Origin: Tieghemostelium lacteum
Taxonomy: Eukaryota; Evosea; Eumycetozoa; Dictyosteliales; Raperosteliaceae
Reading direction: 5' to 3'
DNA: 64,000 nt
Assembly: GCA_001606155.1 (NCBI GenBank)
Contig: LODT01000018.1
Span: 61,780 to 125,779 of the forward strand
Part shown: piece by piece, positions 2,579 to 62,975 of the stretch
Layout of the letters: the number at the start of each line of letters is the position of its first letter
Position numbering within the stretch: the first letter of the stretch is position 1
Position numbers and translations under genes: made by a program
Notes under the pieces: model-generated
The model's input: only the letters and a program-made list of their open reading frames with translations
Databases searched by the model: none
Told to the model about the DNA's origin: nothing

Positions 2579-3770
2579 ATGATTAATTGGTTATATTTAA
2601 TAAATATTTTATTATTTTTATTTGTTAAAATAATAAAATCAGATCCCAATTGTATAATAGGGGGTATAGAAGCTGATTCCTGTGTAAATTCAAGATATAT
2701 ATTCAATGGAAATAATTATGTTATTCAACAAAAAATTGATTTAATTAATGGGACTGTTTTGGAATTTGGTGAAAATACAACTGTATATTTTGAAAGATCA
2801 TCTTCTATCCATTTTTATTGCAATCCAGGTCTTGAATATCATTATAACATAGATTGTAAACAAATTATCATTAAAGGTAACGTCAGTACAAATGCTGCCT
2901 TTTTCACTGCTGATTTAAATTTAGTTAATTTATTAAATGAATATGACGAATCACCTAGTCTAATTTTTTTTGGTGAAATTACATCAACACAAACTGCTGA
3001 TTATTCTGATAATTCAACAACTCTGACTTGGCCATTATTCTATTTAAATATCACAACAAATGATCAATATAATTGCACTTATCTTTGTTCAAATAGGGCT
3101 AATAGTCTATTTAATATTGCAATAAAATGTAGTATGTATTTATAATTTATCTTTTGAAATGATATAATATACTAATTTAAACTAAAATTTAGGAAAACAA
3201 CCAATTTCAAGAGCCATTGATATAAATGTTACTCATTCTTATTGTCAAGATCAATATTTTGGTTTTAATGCTATTCAATATGAAGGAGTAATGACCTATT
3301 CTGTTCCTGTAGAATCATTCTATATAAAAAATTATTTAGTAGATCCACAACAAGGTCAAGGTCCATATATGATATCTGTTGGATTTTATCTAAGAATCTA
3401 TCCAGGTTTTGATTTCAAATATACTCTCAATGATTTTGGTTATATGATTTCTCAGAAAACATATAATGAGTAATTATAAACTTCAAATTATTTTAAAATT
3501 AATTCAAACTAATCTTTTATTCAATATAAATCTTACAGGAAATGTGGACCAATTTTTAATGTTACCTCATCTTACACAATTCTTACTCCTTATGGTGTTG
3601 TACCATTACCACCAACAAGTCCACCAAATACTGCCACTCCAACAAATACACCAAATTCACAAGAAACCAATAGTGAAGATGTTCAAGTTTCATCTTCAAT
3701 CAAATTTTCTTTAAATCTATCCATTCTAATCTATATCTTCATTGCTTATGTTCTAAATCATGATTTATAA
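2579..3770 (+). CDS. Secreted or membrane-anchored protein, 3 exons
   Basis: Exons 2579-3131, 3193-3469 and 3539-3770 join in frame to 353 residues; the introns (61 and 69 bp) are GT-AG. Residues 1-20 form a hydrophobic signal peptide. The mature part has spaced cysteines and several N-x-S/T sites, then a Pro/Thr/Asn-rich linker (PLPPTSPPNTATPTNT) and a hydrophobic C-terminal tail ending in NHDL, which fits a GPI-anchor signal or a single membrane segment. I do not recognise the family. A 5'-deleted copy lies at 6119-6632. It converges with the GTPase gene downstream, only about 100 bp apart. Confidence 0.75.
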
Positions 3771-48186: not shown

Positions 48187-50133
48187 ATGATAAATAATAA
48201 TTATTTAATTTTATTAATATGCATTATTATAATAACTAGTAATCATTATTTTATTAGACTAGTTAATGGATCACAAAGATATATTCCAAAAATCTCAACA
48301 AATAAAAATAATTGGGTGTGTGGGAATTTAGATTTTATTGATGAAGATGATTTACCAGAAACACCAGGCATTTATATTTTCACCAATATAGCAGGCTATG
48401 GTGTTTATGTTGGTGAAACTGTATCAATAAAAAAGAGATTCAAATCACATCAGAATCACGGTATGGCCTCACAATTAACAAATGAAGAATCACTTGAAAT
48501 TGATTTGTGGGATACATCTAATAAGAGAGAATTAAAAAATTCACTCAAAAGATACTGCTATCATACATTAAATTCTAAAAGTGATGCAGTAATCTATGAA
48601 ACTCTACTACTGACTGCATTTTGTTGGCCATTGAATAGTGTTAAAAAAAAGGGAATGTATGTGGAACAAAAATTATTAAAATCTCCAGTAACAAAGTGCC
48701 TAACCTCTCCAGAAGAGGCAATTCAAATTGAAGATGTTACTCAGTTTGTGGACAATTGGTTCAATGCTGGTGATGATATAGTGGATTCTTTCGCAAATTC
48801 ATTGCTTACTGGTAAACTTAAAAACATCCAATCACAATCACTTTATTTAGATTATTCAATAATTCCCACTGCTAGTAGTAGTAGTAGTAGTAGTAGTAGA
48901 AATCAAAAAATTGCTGGTGGTCAATATGATCTTTCATTTTTATATAATAGTGAAGATGATGAGGACTGGCTTGATAATGCATTCTATGATGAAGTATTTG
49001 AGGAACAAAATGACGACCAAATATTCGAAGATACAAAGGATGAAATTCTATACACTGACAATGAAAACGATGAATTATCAACTACTGTTAAAGATGCTCA
49101 ACCTAATAAAGATAAAGGTAAAGGTAAAGAAAAAGAAACAGATGCATCTCCATCAGCAGCAGCAGCTATAGGTTTTAAAAGATTACGTGGAGTATATAAG
49201 CCAGATAGCAAATATTTTAAACAAGATGATTGGGTCTGTAAAGATTATACAGAGATTGCAGCAGAATGGGCAATGTTAATGGATGATGAGTATAAAAGAA
49301 AGATTATCTATTTAGATATCAGAACTGTACCAAAACAACCTGGTATCTATATGTATTTCAGTAAAGATGATGATAATGACATTAAATACATTGGACAGTC
49401 TAGTTATGATATAAGAGAAAGACACAGGGAGCATTTATTAGGCGAGGGCTATTGTGGAAATGTACAAAAACAACTTGAAAATACTGATTTGCCAAAGTAC
49501 TTGAAGACTCTTAGAAAAAAAACAAAGGAAAAAGCTAGTAAAGATCCTAATTATGCTACAAATCTAAATCAAGCATGCATTTTTTGTTATAAAACTCTGG
49601 CTCCAAATGTTAAACAGGAAAGAGGCCGTAAAAACTCTCACTATCAACTTTATTCATTCGAACCAATTCTCTATGAAGGAATGCTACTAAGCAGTGTATG
49701 TGCTCCCATTAACAGTGTTACTGATTTGGGTGTAAAAGAGAGTGGTATGTCACAGTGTACATCTAATACAGTAGATATCTTTCAACTATTTAATTCAATT
49801 AATTTAAACAGGGTTACACCCTCTCTAATTTTAGGAGTCCAACCATCTGATTATTCTACAATGGATAAATCTATTGGGAAATTATCACCTTCTTCCTCTA
49901 CTTTAAAAGATGATCAATCTTTATTAGATTTCTTAAATGATTCAATACGTAATACAATTTTGGATTTATCTTTACAATTATCCTCTGCCAATAGTGTTAG
50001 TTATAATGATGCTAATGAAGATGAAGAAAATCAAGAAGAAAATAATTATAGCCATGCTGATAATAATGGTCTGAATGGTTCATTTGAAAATTTTTTCAAA
50101 GATACCTATGGCCCTATTGATTTGGATGATTAG
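48187..50133 (+). CDS. Protein with signal peptide and two GIY-YIG domains
   Basis: Single exon, 648 residues to a TAG at 50131. Residues 1-29 are a hydrophobic signal peptide or anchor. GIY-YIG domain 1 at about 58-155: PGIYIFTNIAGYGVYVGET then IKKRFKSHQ, with Glu in VIYETLLL. Domain 2 at about 395-510: QPGIYMYFSKDD, IKYIGQSSYDIRERHREHL, with Glu in PILYEGMLLS. The two domains seem to be diverged copies; each ends with CxPxNSV. Between them lie a poly-Ser (AGT) run and acidic sequence. GIY-YIG proteins are normally intracellular nucleases of DNA repair or mobile elements. Both Tyr and Glu positions are kept, so nuclease activity is possible. Confidence 0.7.
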   Translation: MINNNYLILLICIIIITSNHYFIRLVNGSQRYIPKISTNKNNWVCGNLDFIDEDDLPETPGIYIFTNIAGYGVYVGETVSIKKRFKSHQNHGMASQLTNEESLEIDLWDTSNKRELKNSLKRYCYHTLNSKSDAVIYETLLLTAFCWPLNSVKKKGMYVEQKLLKSPVTKCLTSPEEAIQIEDVTQFVDNWFNAGDDIVDSFANSLLTGKLKNIQSQSLYLDYSIIPTASSSSSSSSRNQKIAGGQYDLSFLYNSEDDEDWLDNAFYDEVFEEQNDDQIFEDTKDEILYTDNENDELSTTVKDAQPNKDKGKGKEKETDASPSAAAAIGFKRLRGVYKPDSKYFKQDDWVCKDYTEIAAEWAMLMDDEYKRKIIYLDIRTVPKQPGIYMYFSKDDDNDIKYIGQSSYDIRERHREHLLGEGYCGNVQKQLENTDLPKYLKTLRKKTKEKASKDPNYATNLNQACIFCYKTLAPNVKQERGRKNSHYQLYSFEPILYEGMLLSSVCAPINSVTDLGVKESGMSQCTSNTVDIFQLFNSINLNRVTPSLILGVQPSDYSTMDKSIGKLSPSSSTLKDDQSLLDFLNDSIRNTILDLSLQLSSANSVSYNDANEDEENQEENNYSHADNNGLNGSFENFFKDTYGPIDLDD

Positions 50134-50194
50134 TTTACTATTAAAAGTAGTAGTATTGGTAGTAGTGGTAGTGGTATTAGTAGTAGTAGTATTG

Positions 50195-50230
<36 letters not shown>

Positions 50231-50484
50231 TTGGTAGTAGTAGTAATAATAGAAATAATAACCCTTCTACATCATTTTTGGCTATTCCTTATCAACCTGG
50301 AGGACCAATTTCTGGGTTAGATGTTATGAGACAAGTACTCGCACATTCAAAACATTCGCAAAGAATTTATAGAGATCCTAATGTAGTTAGATATCATCTA
50401 GCATTTGATATACCCATTCCACCAACATACAAAGGTAATGTGTACAGAAGGATTAAAAGAGATAAAGGTAAAGAAAGAATATAA
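50134..50484 (+). pseudogene. In-frame C-terminal extension behind a single TAG
   Basis: After the TAG at 50131-50133 the same frame stays open for 116 codons to a TAA at 50482. It codes a Ser/Ile/Gly run (AGT repeats), then a non-repetitive tail with LAIPYQPGGPISGLDVMRQV and IPIPPTYKGNVYRRIKRDK. The tail has no clear splice site linking it to the gene before. It may be the former C-terminus lost by a nonsense mutation, a read-through extension, or part of a separate gene without an ATG upstream of the conserved part. Confidence 0.4.
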
Positions 50485-50523
50485 ACTCCAGAATTATGGT
50501 AAAAAATTTGAACAAATTTATTT

Positions 50524-53500
50524 CTAAATGTATAATAATTGATTATTTGTTGTATTAAAATATAAAGAGGATGATTTTCCAATAGGAACGACTCTAAAAT
50601 AAAATGGTTTTGCTGGTTCAATTAGAATAGGAGTTAAATTATCAGTAATGAATGCTCTTTCATAGTGCTCACGAACCAATGTTGTTGAATATGATTTATG
50701 AACACAATTTGATTTTACCTTTCCTGGTGTATCTGGACAAACTTGAGAGATGATAATGGCGTCAATTTGTGTGCTAATATTACAGATTATATTAAGTGGT
50801 TGAATTTTCAATTTAATTAAAATACCATAAATATTACCAAGGTAATTATTACCAGTAGATACTGCAACCTCCTTACCAACATAGAGATCTAGGTGATTAA
50901 CTGTTGGTACTTGAATTTTACCAGAATCTGTTAAAATGGTGAGTTGATATTGGTTGGAGGTTTCATCTCCTACTAAATAGCTTTGCTTTTTAAATAGCTG
51001 GTAATTTGGAAGACGAATTCTAATTTGATTGTATTGCATGGCTATCTCTGAGGGTGCCAACAATCTAAATTGTCGAGAGGTAAAAACATCATAGATAAAT
51101 GGTAATCTCTGAACAAGAACAGATCTATAATTTGGAATAGTTGGACCAAATTGAAGTGAGAGACTTGAAGTTGGATCAGTTTCTTTAAAAAGAGGTCCAT
51201 CAGTTGAAATGTAATTGTTTGGGAAAATATTCATTGTTTTACTATAAATATTTAGGGTCAATGATTGATATCCCATTGGCCCATCATAGGTAAAAAGATA
51301 TAGGGTACCTGCTGGATTGGATTGATTTAATCTATCAGTTAACAATTTTGGTGTTGTAATACGATGTCTAAACAATGATTTGTAAAGTAGATTTTCTGCA
51401 TTTTTCCATAGCTCTTTAATGTTGGTATTTGATTTGGTAGAGTCAAGGTACCAATCTTCTGGTATTAGATCTGATATAAGACCTAGAGATTTACGAATAA
51501 CCACTGGGTTTAAATCTATTGTGGAAACCCAATTCATTAATGGATCTTGTAGATCAGAACCATAACTACCACTTGAACCACCCATTACTATAGTATCAGA
51601 TCTATAGGATTGGTAATGAAATCTTTTTCCAAATGATTCACTCTTATCACTTGAATAGGATCCTGATATCTTCCCACTGCCTTTTGCACCCCATCTTGAG
51701 ATACTAGCTGAGAAAGATCCACCAATAGCCCATGATAGATCTTGATCACTAGTAGAATCCAAAAATTCAGAGTAAATAGTAGACATTTCTAATAGTTTAC
51801 CACCAAAAACTGCAGATTTCTTATAGAGAGTACCATATCTTTTAATTAATGATACCATTTTGGTTTGTAGTTCTGTGCTATTGGAAGTGTGCAATAGTGA
51901 GAGATCTTTAATGAATGATGGGTGCCAATTTGCCTTATTTAAATGCATTTTTGTAGTTTCACAGTTAAATTCGCTGACATGGATACTAGATGATGTTTTT
52001 CTTTCTAGATTGTTTGCAATAGCGTATTGTCCACTAAATGACATTGATGCTGACATTGCTGCTTCAAAACCAAATAGACCACCACTAAGTGAAAATGAAC
52101 CATCTAATCCAGCTTCAATACCTGCTCGAATAGAATAAGCCTCGGAATTGGAGTAACTTTGACTTTGAATATCATAAGAACATTTGGGGCTGATTTGTGC
52201 ATGAATGGATGAGGGAATAGTATATACTGATTTACGATAGGTACTTTGTACAGTTGAAAAAGTACTATTATCACAATACCCATGATAAAAAATTTGATGA
52301 GCTTGATCTTCAAAAGTTGTAATATCAACTCCGTGAGACATGTGATTTATACCAGGTATTGAGTATAAGTACTGATTGTTAACTAATGATCCAATAAAAT
52401 CACCCTCTGCTTGTGGATAGCTGGATGTTATTGGTGATGGTGGTGCCAAACCTTTACACAGTGGTGTTATATCTTGCCAACAATCAATCAAGCATGTTAC
52501 AGGATCTTCATTACAAAATCCATCACCACATACTGGTGAATTAGTAGTCGATGTTGTAGAGCTAATAAATGTGGATGGGATGGGTTGGTAACTATCAGAC
52601 AGTGTTCTTTTCCAACGTAGTGATAATTTTCTTTCACTAAACTTTTCATTGATTGAAAAGAATATTAATTTGATGAGATGTGGTTGATCCTGGCCCAACA
52701 TCATTTTTCTTTCAGAATTGGAAATTCTATCAGAACCACTAATAAAATAGGAATTGAAAATCACCTTATTATCAACTAACACTAGTATACCAATATTTTC
52801 AGATTCCAATTGAAAGTAGTATTCATCAGAATCTGGTACAATGACATTAGACAATAGTAATCCTGATGCAAAACAACCCTCACTTGGCATAAATTGTTCA
52901 ATCTCTGGATATTCCAGATAGGTTGTAATGGTTAGTGGTGCTACTGTACAACTGGATGCATCTGTTGAATAATGGTTATTTCTTATAGCTGGTATAACAC
53001 AATGTCTATAGGTTTGGAATTTCCAACCAATTCTCTCTAATTGATAATTATCAATAGGAGGCACTGGATCACTAGGTAATCCAGAATCATCATTACAATT
53101 ACTATTTAGATCAGTACCACATATTAGATTATTACCTACTCTAATTTGGGCATCATCTATACAGACTATACTAGTACTATCAATTCCTTCGTTATCTAAT
53201 GGTGATATAAAAACAAATGATTGATTTCCTGTTGCATAAAAATCATATCTCTGATTACATGAATATCTATTGGATAATAATGTTAATGTTGATTCAACAA
53301 TGAACATTATACCACCTTGATTAGAATTGGCTTTGTTTGATATAAATTTACTAGTTGATATAGTTGCAGTACTTGATTTCATATATATTGCACCACCACT
53401 ATTGGCTGCATTTTTAACGAATACAACCTTATCTAATAGTAAACTGGAATTTTCAGCATAAATTCCACCACCAAATTTTGAAACACATCTGGTTAGATAG

Positions 53501-54019
53501 ATATTTTCTATTGAAACTGTTGAATCTCTAATATTAAAGCAATTTCCAACTAAACTACCATCTATAATAATTGAACCATAATTTGATTTTAGACCACTGG
53601 AAATCAGTGGAAAAAAAAATTTTTAAATTTAAATGTTAGTAAAATTTTGTTGTGGTGGCTACACCTACATAAATTCTTGATTAATTAATACTATACATTA
53701 TATTTAAATTAATATGAATATCTAAATCATTATTTAAAGGACCACTATAAATACCATAGTGTACTTTAATAGTAGGTGTTGTTGAATCATTAATATTATG
53801 CAAATATTGTATTGCTGTTTTAAAATTTGAAAATGGTTTATCTACACAATCAACATTGCATGATGATTGATTATCAATTTCAATTTCTATATAGAATACA
53901 TGTTAAAACTTAAGTTTTTAAATTGTATTAAATTTTATTAAAATATTACCAATACTAATAATATTGTTTGTTATAAATAATAAAAATAATATAATTCCAT
54001 ATATTTTCATTTCTTTCAT
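50524..54019 (-). CDS. Large secreted MACPF-like protein, 3 exons
   Basis: Exons (minus) 53950-54019, 53697-53886 and 50524-53596 join exactly to 1087 residues. Exon 1 is a signal peptide. A pectin-lyase-like right-handed helix follows (short Gly/Asn/Ser turns and repeated IxxSxxSxxN units, about 60-220), then a PA14-like segment (DEYYFQLESENIGILVLVDN to LRWKR, about 330-440), a Cys-rich CGDGFCNEDPVTCLIDC unit, and the MACPF core (about 540-780) with RYGTLYKKSAVFGGKL and GGSSGSYG. The C-terminal domain ends with paired cysteines as in the copy at 2-1519. Family function is membrane insertion or adhesion; the role in this amoeba is unknown. It shares a 195-bp promoter region with its paralogue. 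Confidence 0.85.
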
Positions 54020-54214
54020 ATAAATTAATGAAATTGTTATAATAACGAATGATGATTTTTTAAGTTTAATTTTTTTTTTAGGAACATGAAGATATTTTAA
54101 ACCTTCTAAATTCGTTCGTATAATGACATATGACCTTCAAGATATTGTTTTTATTTCAAATAAAATCATTTACAACAGTTTTTTTTTTTATTTTTTGTAT
54201 TTGTTTAATTAAAG
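54020..54214. promoter_or_regulatory. Bidirectional promoter of two MACPF-like paralogues
   Basis: 195 bp between two divergent, related genes. It contains oligo-T/A tracts near 54070 and 54180. Joint control of both genes is inferred from the spacing only. Confidence 0.5.
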
Positions 54215-57200
54215 ATGAAACATTGTAAATTCATAATATTATTTCTAATAATTTATTTTAATTTAATTAATTCTATAGCAATTAGTATTTATTCATAAAA
54301 ATCTTTTTTTTTTTTTATTTTTTAAAAAAGTACTAATTACCTAATGATGAACTATAATAGATAAATTATATGTTGATAAATCATCATCATGTATAAATGA
54401 TTGTAATGGTAAAACTATAGAGCAATCATTTAGTTCACTAAAACCAGCCTTTGATGTGATTAAAAATAGTAATTCATATGATTTAACTATTGTAACGATT
54501 AAGGAGGATCATTACGATGGTCAAGATAACTATGGTTTTAAAGTACTAGGAAAAAGATTTGAGTTAAAATCTCAAAGTTCAGTAGATACTATGGTAGTTA
54601 TAATTGATTGTCAAGGTAGTGGATTTGGTTTATCTATTGAAAATAGTGATCATTTCTTATTGGGCCATATTAAATTTCAAAATTGTACACATTCAAGAGG
54701 TGCAGCACTACAAATAATACAATCTAAAGGTTTATTATTGTATACCGAATTTGAAGCAAATTCAGCATATTATGGCGCATGTATATATAGTGATCACAGT
54801 CTTATTGATATCTATGTTAGTCTAAGTGCTGTGGGTGCTAATCATGTTCAATATAATAGTATCGGCGGTGATATTCATGCTGTATCACAATCAAATATAC
54901 GTATTCTTGGTAACAGTATATTTCATAATATCTATCTCCGTAATCAGAGTACTGTTGAGATTAGAGACCAAAATACAAAAGTAATTAATATTCAATGTGA
55001 TAGTGGTAGTACTGCAACTAAGGCAACTAGAACTGTACCTTCTGTTCAAGAAGATGCTTGTTCAAATGATCTTGTTTGTGGTGAACCTGTTGTAGATCCT
55101 AACTATGTACCTACCTATTTATCATGTTGGGCAAATGACGATTCAAGTTGTTTTTTTAATGGCATGTCATTTGAAGTAGTAAAATTATCTGACGAATCAA
55201 GAGTATCTATTGAAGCCATAAATAAAGTGGTTTTAGAAAGTCCATTTAAAAATGTTGATTCAACAAGATCACATGATAACAGTAATGCTTATTTATTTGG
55301 TCTATCAAGTCAAGTTAAAGGTATACTAATAGGTTACCTATCATTACCAATCAATGGAAAATCACTTAGATTTAATATTTCTGGTTCAAATTTAGCATTT
55401 ACAATGCAAATTAATGGTAATCCAACACCATTATTAACAGTACAAGAGACCGAACAATTTTCCATTCAAACTGATACCCTTTACTTTGAAGAAGAGGTAA
55501 CTCACACTATTAGACTAGAATTGACTACTTCCTTCATTGAACCAATAACAAGAACTTTTGGTATCACTGTTATTGATGAACCAAATATTCAAATTTTTTA
55601 TTCAAGAAATGGTATGTTTACTTAAATACAATAACTTCCATAATAACTAAAATTACTAATTTTTTTTTGATAAAGTATGTGGAGATGGTATATTAGATGA
55701 AGACGGTGATAGAGATATTACATGTTTAACAGATTCAAGAGAACACATTAAATGTAACAATGGTAATCTTGATGATAATTTTCAGGTATGTTACAAACAA
55801 CTATCAAAGAGAAATGATTGTTCGCCACGAACTGTACCAAAAGGTCATATGTCCCCTGGTTATTATTATGAATATGATACACTTGGTGAATTGTTATCAA
55901 ATCAATTTGTTTGGAGATTAAGTGGATCTGAGCATTTTCAATTTGGTATAAATATTCTTACTGGCGAGGAAGCTGATGCTCCCCTATTCCAGTTTGATTA
56001 CTGTGATCAAGAGAGATACCAAGTTATTGAAGATCCATATAGAGGTATGGTCTATGAAATTCCACCTGAACTATTTGTAAAACCAATGCCGCAATGTACC
56101 TATTCATCAAGTACTAAAATGTACTCTTCCTCTGAAGAAATGAGAAAATCAATGGCAACCAATCTAAATATTGATGCATCATTAAGTGGTGGATATGCTG
56201 GTTTAGAAGGTAATGTTGCACTCACCATTGAAAAATCAAATTTAGAAGCTAGATCTACAAGTACAACTTCTACCAAACATTTATTTGTCTCTGAGGTCAA
56301 TTGCACAATGGCCTATGTAGAAATTGGTAATTTACCATTTCATCCAAGAATTTTAGAGAGATTTGCTAGCATGACGAGTACTATTGAAATGCTTGATATC
56401 ATAAAAACCTACGGTAACTATTATTATAAATCAGGTTATCTAGGTGGTCAATTGAAACAAATCACTACAACTTCACATCAAATCACTTCCCAACAAGAAG
56501 AAGAAGAATTATCGGCAAGCGCATCTGCTAGTTTAGGTGCTTCTGTTTCTAAACCTTTTATTAAAGGTTCTGCTGAATTATCATTCTCAATCAGTGGTAG
56601 TATGAGTGAGCAGAGACAACAAGAGATTCAACAATCTACCAGTAGAAGTAATTTAATTACTTGGGGTGGTGCACCAGGTTCATTCTCGCCCATTAAACCT
56701 AATAGTTTCCAATCACCATCAACTTATTCTGCTTGGTCTGAGACTATTGACCAATTTCCAGTACCAATAAATTACAAATTAGCACCAATTAGAGATTTAA
56801 TTAATGAAAAATGGTTATCAAAAATCATTAATCCAATAACAAGTCAACCAAAATCAGTTAAACAAGTTTGGATGGAAATGGAAGGTAAATATTAAATTTT
56901 GATATCTCAACTGCCTATTTTTTCTACCACAATATATATATATATTAATATATTTTCTTTATTTATTGACAAAAGAGGTATGGTATAATCAAAATTTAAT
57001 TGAAAAAACTATAGTTAATCAAGACTCTAGTATATTATATGAATATACATTGGTTCTAGTATTAGATCAATTACCAACCAATGACAGTCTAATACCATCA
57101 ATTAATTACTCCTATCAAAACAAACAAAACCAAACAGTCAATGGCACCATTTTATTAGATGAATATATTCACACTACACCATCAGGCCAAGAATTTAAAT

Positions 57201-58174
57201 TTAAATTTCCTGTTCAGACAAATGGAGCCAACTCACCTCCTCCCATTTGTTTAAAACAAAATTATTATCCAAACTATAATGAAACAATGATGAATGACAT
57301 TAAAGCAACATTTGATCAAGTTACACTTTGTCAAGGTGGTATCAGACAGTTACAAACACCATTGACATTTTATTTCACTTCCAAAAATGATTTGATTAGA
57401 GATCCAATCACTGCTCCAAAATTCACATTTAATAATATACAAACCAGTAACATCACCAATATGAACAGTCAACTCATTAGCTGGAATCTTGGAAAAGGTT
57501 TTCAGTTCAATAACAACTTATTGGTAAACAGTACAACAGAAACTGATTATGGTTGTAGTATTGCTTTAGAAAGAACTTGGGGTCCACAGATACCACAAAA
57601 CACTTTAGATAATAAGTCCAGAAATCAAATACGAAATGTTTCTGCTCCAGGTATTGCTAGATTTGCTGATAATCTATACGATAGACTATACTTTGGTTTC
57701 AATACTGGTAATGGAATTTATCTAGAGGGTAGAAAAACATGGTATCCTATTGCAACTACAACTGCTGAAAACAGTGCTTTTAAAAACTTTTATCCAAACA
57801 ACTACTATTACCACCATTTCTATACTGCTCAATATTTCTACAGAGACACCTCTCTGTTTAATGTAAAATACTCTGAACAGTATCTTGGAATGTCGGCTAG
57901 AATTAACTGGATCATGGTGTTTCTTGCCGAAGGAACTAATAATTGGATATGGGATATCAAGTCATACAACATTTTTCAACTACCAAAGGGTATTATAAAC
58001 CTATCAAGTCGTGATAAAACTTACCCATTACTTCCTTTAGAATTAAATGGGCTTCGTAGTGATTATTATTTTCCAAATTACAATTTTCCTTTGGATGGTG
58101 GAATTAATTCTTTAAACAACGATTTCAATTTGAATGCTCCTAATGATCCAGTAGAATTTTTTAGTGTAAATTAA
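54215..58174 (+). CDS. Large secreted MACPF-like protein, 4 exons
   Basis: Exons 54215-54284, 54361-55611, 55676-56884 and 56976-58174 join exactly to 1242 residues. Exon 1 (70 bp, signal peptide, phase 1) has the same length and phase as in the paralogue on the other strand. Order of parts: signal peptide, pectin-lyase-like helix (about 60-200), PA14-like region (about 230-430), a VCGDGILDEDGDRDITC unit at the third exon start, then the MACPF core (about 560-790) with KTYGNYYYKSGYLGGQL and GGAPGSFSP, and a 400-residue C-terminal region rich in Asn, Tyr and Trp that the minus-strand gene lacks. The acceptors GATAAAG and CAAAAG are weak, but the phase is kept. Confidence 0.83.
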
Positions 58175-58241
58175 TAAATTATTATAACTTAATTAAATAA
58201 TATTTTCATTACAAATTATTCCTTTGTACCATTCGCGACAA

Positions 58242-60596
58242 CTAAATGAAGATGTATTTACAACCGTTGTTAGTGATAATAGATGCTATGGCATTGGCAC
58301 ATCCTTGCAAGCATATACCATAATTGGAGAGACTATAGATACCATAGGGTAAAGTTAAATCGGTCTGCAGTAGTGTAGTTATATTTGTGGTACATCCTTT
58401 TTCATTTTGAGGAGAAATAAAGATATTATACTCCATTGGTGTCAGGGTGGTTCTGATTTGATCATAATAAAGGGAACCATCAGGATCAATTAAAGGGTTT
58501 AGTTCTCCAATATAAACCTGATAAATTGCTGCGGGGAGGAACCATTGCATAGAATAGAAACCATTTGAATCTGTCCGCACTGTATAGCTGATTTCCAGGT
58601 TGAAAAGTGTAACTGTTACATCATAAAGCCTCTGCATATCAATTGTAGAAACATAACCATACAATTTCTTGGTGGTAGAAAATTGGGTAACCTGACTGGC
58701 TATTGACACAGTTATAGTAGTGATATCTATCAAATCTATTGTAATAGATAGTTGAACTAGATCAATACGAGTACTATCAATAAATGTGGCTTGAACTTGA
58801 ATTACTTCAGTAGGTTGGCTGAGGGTTGTCACACCAACAAATGTAGTCTCATTAGAATATAATAGTTGGTTATTGGGTACAAAGTTTTTACCATGAATTA
58901 CTAAAGTACCTGTGGGAAGTGCCTCTAATGACTCGATAACTGGTGCATAATAAGATACACTATTGGAAATGTAAACACTGTGATCCGACTGTCTATATAT
59001 ATGCAAAGTTTTTCCAATACCAGGTGGAACATAACAGAGTAGTCTTACATCAAAGCTATCACATTGTAGTGGTGTGTTAACAAAGGTGGATAATTGTAAA
59101 TCCAATTCACTAGAGAAGTATCCCCAACCAGAACCATAGATTTGTATATAACCACCGTCAGTAGGTATCAATCGATTAGTTTCAACAACTCTACCAGAGG
59201 GTTTAGGGAAAGTGGTCAACTGTGATGCTATTATTTGATGATTACCAACATTTACTCGAATGGTTTGATTTGATAATCGAGGAACTTGAGGTGAAACTCT
59301 GAACCACAATTGATCAGAGTCAGAGTACTCAACTGCGCATTGTTGATCACCAACAAATACCATTGGCTCATCATCATCATTTAGAAATGAATTGGGTAGG
59401 TATTTACCACTCATCACTATGCTAAATTGTTGGTTTTTGCCACCATCCAAAGACTCTGCTTGGTCTACATTGGTAATCAGTGGTAATTCTGTAAGATCAA
59501 TGATGGATTTTGAAAGTTGTCTATACTCAAAACTAGTATATTGGCCATTGACAATGACTTGAATATTGACAATACCATAGTAGTAACCTGCAAGTGTAAA
59601 ACGAATAGTTTCATGTGAAAGTTCAACTATATTCTCTACTGGAATATCATTGAGTGTAATTGTTAATCTATCTATAGAATTACCAAAGTTATCACCATGA
59701 ATGATTACTTCACTATTCCAAGGCCAAGTAGAGGATGGTGAAGAAATATTTAGTATATTCAGTTCAACAGAATCAATAGTTGGTGGCAAGAATGAGAAAT
59801 AAAATCTAGTACCTTGTTGCAACAATGGATTATTGACAAGAGATACTAGATTATTTCGACCACCAGTACCAGTGAGTTGGCATTGAATTTGATTGCTATT
59901 TTGTGATAAAACAATACAAGGTTCGCCACCAACCTCTACCGTTTCATTAGGGGTAAAGTAGAGACCACTGATGAGCATTTGGGTGGCATTAGTTGGTCCT
60001 TCAGTTGGAAATATACTTGTAATGATACCAGCTCCCAAATTACAAAGATTTATAGTAGACAATTGTTGTACGTCCATTTGTTGTTGATAGATAAGTGAGA
60101 TATCACAGAGGAAACCATTCATTTTCACTACAGCAAACCCATCAAAGTCGATAGAAGAGGCTGCTGTTATATTACTATTGGGTAACAAAATTTCTTGTTG
60201 GCGTTGTTCCCTGTAGCTACCTGGAGTTGGAATATAGTAAACCACTAGATCACCAAATGAGTAGATTGTCGCTGATGGGAGAGATGTCATCATTTCCAAC
60301 AATACAGTGATGGAGCTAATAGTGTTAGCTTGACAAATTCTATAGTAGAATCTATTTTCATAGTGAGTACACAATTGTAGATCTGCACTTTGTTGATGTA
60401 CATCCTGAAGATATTTAATCTCCAAATCAGAGAGTCCTGACATGGTTTCTTTGAGAAGTACTTGAATAGCCATAGATTTACCTGAAAATGTCATCCATTT
60501 GTCAATGGCTTCCTCTAGCAGTTCAATTTCCAGCTGGGTGAGAGATTTGAGATGTTCAACAGACAATGAGTAGGGTTTATCTAATAGACTTTCCAT
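58242..60596 (-). CDS. IPT/TIG-domain protein without signal peptide or anchor
   Basis: Single exon, 784 residues. Residues 1-180 are of unknown type (helical start, then beta-rich). From about 200 to 640 there are four or five IPT/TIG units, Ig-like beta-sandwiches, with words IITSIFPTEGPTNATQMLISG, VIHGDNFGNSID and GGYIQIYGSGWG. A C-terminal beta domain (about 650-740, FNLEISYTVRTDSNGFYSMQW) resembles a carboxypeptidase-regulatory-like fold, followed by a Cys-containing end. In dictyostelids IPT/TIG repeats mostly occur in cell-surface adhesion/recognition proteins (Tgr type) with signal peptide and membrane helix; neither is found here, so the gene may be truncated at both ends. Its base composition is less AT-rich than housekeeping neighbours. 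Confidence 0.75.
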   Translation of the reverse strand: MESLLDKPYSLSVEHLKSLTQLEIELLEEAIDKWMTFSGKSMAIQVLLKETMSGLSDLEIKYLQDVHQQSADLQLCTHYENRFYYRICQANTISSITVLLEMMTSLPSATIYSFGDLVVYYIPTPGSYREQRQQEILLPNSNITAASSIDFDGFAVVKMNGFLCDISLIYQQQMDVQQLSTINLCNLGAGIITSIFPTEGPTNATQMLISGLYFTPNETVEVGGEPCIVLSQNSNQIQCQLTGTGGRNNLVSLVNNPLLQQGTRFYFSFLPPTIDSVELNILNISSPSSTWPWNSEVIIHGDNFGNSIDRLTITLNDIPVENIVELSHETIRFTLAGYYYGIVNIQVIVNGQYTSFEYRQLSKSIIDLTELPLITNVDQAESLDGGKNQQFSIVMSGKYLPNSFLNDDDEPMVFVGDQQCAVEYSDSDQLWFRVSPQVPRLSNQTIRVNVGNHQIIASQLTTFPKPSGRVVETNRLIPTDGGYIQIYGSGWGYFSSELDLQLSTFVNTPLQCDSFDVRLLCYVPPGIGKTLHIYRQSDHSVYISNSVSYYAPVIESLEALPTGTLVIHGKNFVPNNQLLYSNETTFVGVTTLSQPTEVIQVQATFIDSTRIDLVQLSITIDLIDITTITVSIASQVTQFSTTKKLYGYVSTIDMQRLYDVTVTLFNLEISYTVRTDSNGFYSMQWFLPAAIYQVYIGELNPLIDPDGSLYYDQIRTTLTPMEYNIFISPQNEKGCTTNITTLLQTDLTLPYGIYSLSNYGICLQGCANAIASIITNNGCKYIFI

Positions 60597-60607
60597 AGTC
60601 TTTTTAA

Positions 60608-61627
60608 TGGTATCTGGTTAGATATGTTAATGAACTGCAGATTCCAGGTATCAAGTATAATTTCAATTTTCATTTGAACGACATTCACCTTGAATCATGG
60701 AATGGTGATGAATATGATAATGACTCTGGGATGAATAGAGAGGATGCAATGACTGAAAAAAATTTTGAAACTAATTATTTGGAAGTGACTTCTGATATAA
60801 GAACAGAGTATCCACCACATTACAGCGACTTTACTGATGCCATTCTATTCCTCGATCCTTTGGAACTCGCTATAAAGTCACTGGGGGAATCTGATTCAAA
60901 GAATGAATATATTGATATTTGTCATAGTATATCAATACATAATCAACGGTATCAGTCTGTAAGGATATTCAATCAACCAATACCACTGATGGCTCTTTAT
61001 AGGCTACTTCAAGCGCCTAATCTCCACACCCTGGATATAACACTGCAATTTCACCAACTATTTTCATTCTACAAGAGCTATGATAGATATAATGGTAAAG
61101 CACCTCCCAGAAGATCCAGATACACACCAGTAAATAATATTAATATTGACAATATAAAACATTCTCATGAGAAGAATCTGTGTCCGGAAAATGACGATAT
61201 AAAAGAACACTGGACTTTCCCAACAGAGTTCTATGATGCATTAGAAAAAGATTACAAAGAAGATAGATATCTGTTTTGTGATTTCTTTTCTGCTTGTAGA
61301 GCTACTGTACCACCTCACGAGTATTCTCATGACTTGTGGAACAAGTGTAAAGAGTTGTTGAGGAATCACAAGACTCTGACTGCTCTATCGATATCACATG
61401 TCGACACATGGTGTTCTTGTAAAAATGAACCACCTCAACAGTTTATCATTGATTTTGCAGAGTTGATCAAGTCTAGTAAATCACTTAAATCTTTGAATTT
61501 GGATATTGACTTTGTCACTGCAGAAACTGTTAAGCAGATGATAGAAAACAATCCAACACTTCATCTTTCTTTCGTCCAAAACATGTCAAGTAAATTTTGC
61601 ATAAGGATAATAAATATAGTCCACTGA
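60608..61627 (+). pseudogene. LRR-like ORF lacking a start, probably 5'-truncated
   Basis: The frame is open from 60608 to the stop at 61625, but no ATG occurs until about 60732 (GMNREDAM), well inside the coherent sequence. The N-terminal part (LQIPGIKYNFNFHLNDIHLE) reads like an internal segment of a larger protein, and the C-terminal 110 residues have leucine-rich-repeat-like helices (NHKTLTALSISH, SSKSLKSLNLDI). The gene on the other strand begins 78 bp upstream of the first ATG-free part, leaving no room for a promoter. Likely a subtelomeric fragment of an expanded LRR-type family; a short protein from the internal ATG remains possible. Confidence 0.5.
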
Positions 61628-62975
61628 ATCACAAAAAAAAAATAAATAAATAATCAAACAAAATTAAAAACCTCTCTCATTAAAATTATGAGTTTTTTTG
61701 ATCAATCAGATTATGTACCCAATTGAGTCAAAAGGTTACATTAAAGAAAAGATGACAAAAGCTGTTCAATTAGATGTTAAGAACGGGTTTAATCATCAAA
61801 TAGATAAGAAATTATTACTGTAGCGTGAAAGATAGAGAAATAGAAATGAAGGGGTATAGAAGTAATATATAGATAGATGGTGAATATATAAAAGAGAAAA
61901 GAGATAAATAGAGAATAGAGTTAATAAAGGTAGAATGTATAAAATAGAAGGTTTTTGATTTAAAGATTTTATTGATACCCTTGATTGTAATAGATCAATC
62001 TACTAAATATCATACAATTACTTGATAGTAATGACAAGATTTTGACTTAACATGAAATTTCTACACCAACTTTAATGGTGATGTCGATAGCGTTGATTGG
62101 TACTAATGAATATAGAATATATTCATTAATATTGATTGATATTAAATAACAGCAACATTTCAATTTCAACACAACAACAGCAGATAACCATATTAATTTA
62201 GAAGAAGAGAAATAAGAATTCAAGAATTATTAGTGATAGAAGTGAAGAAGTGTAGAAAAGAGAATAGAAATTAGTTTGGATGAATCTGGTCAATTCAGTA
62301 GGTTTGTTCAATTATCACTGAACTGGGTTTGGTATATATTTATACTATTGTTACAATCTATGCCATATTTTGGAATATACACTAAGTTGAATTTAAGATC
62401 AAACTCAGTATTCGTTCAATTAAAAGCAAGGTGTCAGTTGTGAATGATAATGTTAACATTATGATGGTGGTGCGTTTGAAAGGCATTTGAATAACTTTAC
62501 ATTTCATCTATCATCAATAGATATGTTGGTTGAAAGATTATATTGCCATGGTGTTAATGATTATTGGATTTGATAGAATAGGCTATCAATTTCTCATTTT
62601 CTTCGATCTTGTAATTAGGGAATCATCAGTAGAATACAGCAGAGATTGAATTCAACAACTCAACTAGAAACACATTCGATCTCTCATATTGTTGCAATCT
62701 CACTAAATTATATGATTATCAAATCAATGAGTTTCATAATACTCAAGATCTAAAAATGTTGGTGGTGATGCTATATCATTTACTTCTCAGGTTCCAATGC
62801 TATTGTAATTATAATTGAAATATTTTCATTAATATTAACTGATATTTAATAACAGTGATATTATTTTAGGAAACAGTAGCAGGATTTCAAATATATTTTG
62901 ATGAGCTTGGATAATGTTGGTTTGGTTAGGTTGAATCTGATTGTAATTAATTACATGATAGGCAGTGTAGTAATG
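61628..62975. other. Gene-free subtelomeric region with dispersed short repeats
   Basis: No ORF of note. It carries two diverged copies of a 38-bp motif, TTCATTAATATT(G/A)A(T/C)TGATATT.AATAACAG, at 62115-62152 and 62817-62855. Purine-rich GATAGA/GAGAAA sequence fills 61825-61930. No RNA gene was recognised. Confidence 0.5.

Follow-up and report, generated by a model that had tools for sequence, protein, structure and literature searches.

What would a GIY-YIG nuclease with a signal segment do in an amoeba that eats bacteria, and what is to be made of its position beside a pair of perforin-like genes? The question is raised by a gene at positions 48187 to 50133 of a 64-kb stretch of DNA from Tieghemostelium lacteum (here called the window; GC content, 29%), which covers positions 61780-125779 of contig LODT01000018.1 (C15 below), at the contig end. 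In the reading proposed here, the product of this gene is a GIY-YIG endonuclease that enters the secretory or phago-lysosomal pathway, belongs to a small amoeba family, and probably acts with MACPF pore formers from adjacent genes on engulfed or outside cells; taken as a whole, we consider this reading moderately likely. The gene and its parts are as follows.

48187..50133, + strand: two-domain GIY-YIG protein, open reading frame (ORF) of 648 amino acids (ORF translation, Pfam scan)
48187..48270, + strand: N-terminal hydrophobic signal segment, residues 1-28 (hydropathy; no Lys or Arg before R24)
48313..48666, + strand: module 1, a W-V-C motif (C45) and a GIY-YIG domain with Y63, Y74, R84, H88, E138, and N150
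48817..49206, + strand: intermodule linker, Ser-rich, acidic, and of low complexity (bounds set by eye)
49231..49719, + strand: module 2, a W-V-C motif (C351) and a GIY-YIG domain with an insert, with Y388, Y401, R412, H416, E497, and N509 (numbers counted from the sequence)
50131..50133, + strand: in-frame TAG closing the ORF
50134..50484, + strand: in-frame coding-like continuation of 116 codons (77 outside a Ser/Gly repeat), ending in TAA

A sequence-only reading of this DNA had proposed a signal segment and two GIY-YIG domains on one ORF, and both stand. The frame is exact, with 648 codons and no internal stop; the open frame comprises 657 codons, but the extra 9 upstream of position 48187 contain no ATG. 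PF01541 matched the whole protein in two stretches with 48.5 bits (curated cutoff, 22.6). On the isolated domains, domain 1 scored 35.3 bits, while domain 2 scored 19.6 to 20.5 bits, below the cutoff. A profile built only from the four domains of paralogous genes at other loci matched residues 51-160 with 31.3 bits and residues 380-436 with 30.5 bits, compared to a top score of 8.3 bits among 2000 shuffles. Fourteen positions are invariant in all six domains of the family described below (domain 1 numbering: C45, P57, G61, Y63, Y74, G76, R84, H88, C124, E138, L141, L142, N150, G156), and the Tyr, Tyr, Arg, (His), Glu, and Asn among them we take to be the GIY-YIG catalytic residues. The other family domains are only 23 to 29% identical to domain 1, and the six catalytic positions are invariant nonetheless. 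The Tyr pair and downstream Glu that the first reading had seen in each copy are thus accompanied by Arg, His, and Asn. The shared "CxPxNSV" end is also present twice (C146/N150 and C505/N509), its Asn lying 12 residues past the Glu, a spacing found by eye count in 6/6 family domains and 5/5 UvrC-type rows. AlphaFold2 with a two-row alignment gave poor, low-confidence models in two runs; the weak model of domain 2 shows a β-β-α-α-β-α order, and in a structure search made with that model only, the VIA rows were weak. On good support from the conserved residues, both modules appear to carry a complete GIY-YIG active site, and the protein is likely an active nuclease.

The N terminus of the protein has a best 11-residue hydropathy of 3.65, the highest of the 31 window ORFs of at least 150 amino acids; the next-highest values among the other 30 are 2.75 and 2.65. 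A start downstream of the signal segment had been named as a possible difficulty. The first in-frame Met after M1 is M93, which lies within domain 1, so any product made without the signal would also be without the GIY and YIG strands of that domain. Mitochondrial targeting was considered, and the first 30 residues, which hold one Arg and no Lys, speak against it. As judged from hydropathy only, a signal-like segment starts all five intact family ORFs (2.92 to 3.65, against 2.75 for the top of the 30 control ORFs), making secretion much likelier than an accident of the gene model. Very probably, the window protein is located in the secretory pathway.

The family was sought across the whole genome (23.3 Mb, 43 contigs) with PF01541 and three family proteins as queries, and the best candidates were scored. 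It comprises five intact proteins at three loci, with six domains in total, and the window gene is the fused two-domain member. The other four are single-domain GIY-YIG proteins with signal segments:

Contig C15, ~62 to 64 kb upstream of the window gene: C15A (275 amino acids) and C15B (195 amino acids)
Contig C9: C9A (273 amino acids) and C9B (204 amino acids)

Each intact locus therefore encodes two GIY-YIG domains, fused in the window and on neighboring genes at C9 and the left C15 locus. The C9 and left C15 loci go back to a single duplicated segment: gene order is shared between them, except that B is flipped. Ratios of nonsynonymous to synonymous substitution (dN/dS) were estimated crudely by the Nei-Gojobori method from one pair per gene. 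Between the copies, the A proteins are 60% identical (155/257 aligned residues; dN/dS, 0.49) and the B proteins 61% identical (119/194; 0.70), beside left MACPF proteins at 84% (784/931; 0.31), small secreted proteins at 63% (118/188; 0.24), and an unrelated left gene at 69% (393/571; 0.61). By these estimates, the GIY-YIG paralogues appear to be kept as proteins yet fast-changing, as is the unrelated left gene. Pairwise scores had raised the suspicion that domain 1 is of B type and domain 2 of A type, through fusion or fission, but trees did not support this: six-row trees grouped the two window domains weakly (59 and 79), and a tree including UvrC rows was unresolved (23, 61). A separate GIY-YIG frame at C17:523644-523895 (L002:1423-1779, − strand) has 118 codons and no signal, and by eye resembles the homing type.

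Next to the GIY-YIG gene in the window lies a pair of MACPF genes:

50524..53382, − strand: MACPF ORF of 952 amino acids, convergent with the GIY-YIG gene (Pfam, 54.6 bits)
54591..58174, + strand: the other MACPF gene of this divergent pair, split into pieces that presumably join, with the MACPF match in 55849-56895

Searches for GIY-YIG, MACPF, DAAD, and the small proteins described below were all genome-wide, with the best candidates scored. PF01823 gave 32 matches, namely, 15 pairs and two pieces of a broken remnant on contig C4. Members of a pair lie ~4 to 5.5 kb apart, and 13 pairs are divergent, 1 is convergent, and 1 is head-to-tail. All three intact GIY-YIG loci adjoin such a pair. From the end of the GIY-YIG gene to the nearest MACPF-domain match, the distances are 1.3, 1.4, and 8.5 kb, and in the third case a MACPF fragment intervenes; the window gene ends ~0.4 kb before the 952-amino-acid ORF, and C9B lies ~0.2 kb from a MACPF ORF. 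Downstream of C15B come two frames, a fragment from the C-terminal part of a MACPF protein (over 193 residues, 62.7% identity with the C9 MACPF protein), more frames, and then a full MACPF pair. The extra frames among C15B, the fragment, and the intact MACPF gene (L013:5921-8260, L016:666-1957) may represent an insertion or a second broken copy. Sequence no more than 3 kb from a MACPF match makes up only 0.8% of the genome, and sequence no more than 9 kb away makes up 1.6%. Because the C9 and left C15 loci stem from one duplicated segment, at most two of the three loci are independent. For two, the chance of such proximity lies between about 6e-5 (taking 3 kb) and 2.6e-4 (taking 9 kb), a post hoc figure that treats the genome as a line. 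One scanned MACPF member has a PA14 domain over the cutoff, and another has a weak PMP-like repeat below it.

Other secreted proteins gather at the same places. For 12 of the 15 MACPF pairs (window, L013-L034 without L014, L067-L068), at least part of each of the two flanks was inspected, and for L035 one flank; the inspection left out the pairs at C23:1763302 and C31:69668 and the C4 remnant. Beside MACPF pairs lie genes for small proteins with a signal segment and a C-x-I-x-x-x-x-x-D-S-C start:

Window 2579-3145, + strand: small secreted Cys protein
L018:4351-4935; L026:7466-7912; L029:7219-8031; L031:7213-7665; L033:6711-7247: small secreted Cys proteins

With one member as the query, the genome gave seven matches including itself (weakest counted match, E = 0.018), six of which lie no more than 3 kb from a MACPF match; the four such proteins that were scanned had no Pfam match over the cutoff. 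Three DAAD deaminase genes and a fragment (C40:730327-736350; L028:7529-8815, − strand) adjoin the MACPF pair at 723525-729132, and the one that was read has a signal segment. The genome-wide search placed further DAAD genes at three sites, none near MACPF matches. With small secreted proteins and one deaminase cluster assembled in this way, the MACPF loci resemble secreted-effector clusters.

How might such a nuclease work? The signal segment would direct the window protein into the endoplasmic reticulum (ER), a step well supported by its sequence, where conserved cysteines (C45 and C124, invariant in the six domains) may form disulfides. By analogy with its family, each module would use a divalent metal ion to hydrolyze a strand of DNA or RNA. 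Every intact locus encodes two diverged domains, fused or on neighboring genes, so the two may work as a pair, which would cut both strands. The product would most likely reach food bacteria or foreign cells, either inside phagosomes or outside the amoeba, and there the MACPF proteins encoded next to it could open the target membrane, as gene linkage suggests. That the GIY-YIG and MACPF proteins do work together is a tentative proposal drawn from this linkage. We further speculate, with more doubt, that the mostly divergent MACPF pairs form a modular effector cassette, a perforin-plus-nuclease killing system into which GIY-YIG nucleases (three loci), AID/APOBEC-like deaminases (one), and the small Cys protein are plugged against engulfed bacteria or rival cells. 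The first reading had gone as far as a secreted or phagosomal nuclease directed against bacterial or extracellular DNA. A secretory-pathway protein with intact active sites is what 5/5 signals and 6/6 domains indicate, while the target and the phagosomal place are still inferred; the MACPF neighborhood points the same way, toward a phagosomal or extracellular target, but is not proof.

An alternative hypothesis is that the nuclease, secreted or lysosomal, has no tie to MACPF and serves only in the digestion of food or extracellular DNA, whether as a source of nutrients or to loosen biofilms; its neighborhood would then simply be a fast-evolving, duplicating region. The signal segments and active sites would fit this, and the C9 and C15 segmental copies also carry the unrelated left gene, so neighbors can travel passively. 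However, the window has a MACPF pair of its own, only 26 to 40% identical to the other MACPF stretches compared, and a GIY-YIG gene adjoins it nonetheless. The small secreted proteins and the deaminase cluster likewise gather at MACPF loci. We regard this alternative as unlikely, though not strongly so.

Two observations could be taken as signs that the gene is decaying. The first is the TAG that closes the ORF, past which a coding-like frame runs on. In bits per codon, the tail scores +0.375 and its 77 nonrepeat codons score +0.291, compared to +0.332 for the ORF itself and negative values for the other five frames. No second match to the nonrepeat part turned up in the genome, and Pfam recognized nothing in the tail. 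Among 65 ORFs of at least 250 amino acids, TAA is the stop in 54, TAG in 7 (this gene included), and TGA in 4. Several origins are conceivable for the TAG: a nonsense mutation in this allele, an error in the sequence, a stop that is read through, or the edge of an unusual intron. The 44 in-frame GT-AG pairs that span it (lowest GC, 0.29; best donor, GTTAGT, 49996-50133) are less AT-rich than the introns of dictyostelids, and an intron here was judged unlikely. No familiar readthrough motif was recognized after the UAG when compared with those known to us. As for sequence error, the portion of PMC5282741 consulted states that the D. lacteum genome was sequenced by dideoxy and 454.

The second observation comes from contig C11 (1,220,494; L014:4537-6828 in C11:1216000-1224149), where a copy of the window gene has been ruined by indels, stops, and large deletions. 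Its DNA matches window positions 48325-48477, 49404-49907, and 60608-61661 at 92 to 95%, with the GIY-YIG remnants at 92 to 94%. These matches span window positions 48325-61661, so C11 holds a copy of this very region without the stretch that carries the MACPF pair; the remnant does not lie beside the MACPF pair of its own contig (1,058,262-1,063,949). It sits near a contig end, as the window does on C15. Together, the TAG and the ruined copy could mean that this lineage of the family is disappearing and that its protein has ceased to function. Against this, the frame is whole over 648 codons, each active site has its full set of residues, the codon score is positive, and the TAG falls 137 codons beyond domain 2, with both nuclease modules upstream of it. 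A decaying gene is improbable.

It is also conceivable that the window protein is a type II membrane protein, held by an uncleaved N-terminal anchor with its domains facing the ER lumen or the outside. Its segment has no basic n-region and a long stretch ahead of any possible cleavage site, both of which would suit an anchor. Yet the hydrophobic core, ~12 residues by eye, is short for one, and the four paralogues (C15A, C15B, C9A, and C9B) show ordinary-looking signal peptides with Lys in the n-region and hydropathies of 2.92 to 3.37, making an anchor quite improbable. That the domains are catalytically dead binding modules, as might be suspected because outside the core they have diverged strongly from known enzymes, is highly improbable given six catalytic positions kept in every family domain at such low identity.

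The closest sequence relatives of this putatively secreted amoeba family are UvrC, Cho, and DEDD-exonuclease fusions (PF01541; PDB 1YD6, 1YCZ). The family profile finds UvrC at 2.2e-6, and the NCBIfam UvrC, Cho, and PRK07883 models match the family core, with the same Y, Y, R, E, and N and a Glu-to-Asn spacing of 12. By eye, the UvrC-type rows have Tyr in 5/5 cases where the amoeba family has His. Unlike UvrC, the amoeba proteins have a signal segment, the W-x-C motif, conserved cysteines, and tandem or paired domains, and they match no other UvrC part. The full-length UvrC model TIGR00194 scored 25 bits against a cutoff of 285, with its best stretch at residues 55-90 only, and the window protein is not a UvrC. 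Homing endonucleases and SLX1/ANKLE1-type enzymes belong to the same superfamily; TIGR01453 (group I intron homing endonuclease) scored 22 bits against a cutoff of 56 and did not match over its full length, and a Pfam scan of the window protein found no zinc finger, ankyrin, or further domain over the cutoff, with PF19239 also below it. PHROGs gave weak core matches only (best, 1.7e-4), and three scans of viral contigs found no relative. In bacterial and archaeal contigs, the best 31 loci of 181 pattern matches each aligned over at most 48 of 115 query residues, and by length and place of match they resemble, by eye, UvrC or DEDD-exonuclease-GIY proteins. A bacterial or viral origin was set aside, with no viral relative and with bacterial and archaeal relatives that share the core only, so that no donor lineage can be named.

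The GIY-YIG enzymes known from eukaryotes, nuclear members among them, serve in repair and homing in the nucleus or in organelles. The general statement of the first reading that GIY-YIG enzymes act inside cells is nonetheless too broad, as the sections consulted of PMC11669294 and PMC7073777 describe bacterial Rhs/type VI secretion system and TANFOR candidates in which GIY-YIG is a predicted exported weapon, in the former against other cells. Those toxins are bacterial and parts of larger toxin proteins, whereas the window protein has a eukaryotic signal segment. Closer in kind are the secreted nucleic-acid deaminases (SNADs; named in the part of PMC6757416 consulted) and the dictyosteliid AID/APOBEC-like deaminases (DAAD, PF18752), which, like the window protein, are nucleic-acid enzymes with signal segments, and one DAAD cluster also adjoins a MACPF pair; they differ in being deaminases, not nucleases. 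In term searches of one literature library, no paper was found that joins "GIY-YIG" and "perforin"; three dictyostelid genome papers (PMC8535579, PMC5282741, and PMC5097433) contain no GIY-YIG, MACPF, or perforin in their main text, and a review of Dictyostelium defense (PMC5758549) contains no "perforin," "pore-forming," or "DNase." Among the matches listed for GIY-YIG with Dictyostelium, no such family appears in titles or the starts of abstracts.

A parallel in principle is found in killer lymphocytes, where perforin, itself a MACPF protein, works together with granzymes. There, too, a MACPF pore former is combined with a secreted enzyme, a combination that gene adjacency suggests here; granzymes are proteases and share no descent with GIY-YIG enzymes. 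If borne out, a signal-bearing GIY-YIG family in a bacteria-eating amoeba would be a new type of secreted nuclease. Its position beside perforin-like pairs would make it possible to test whether the combination of a pore former and a delivered enzyme arose as an antibacterial weapon in phagocytic protists.
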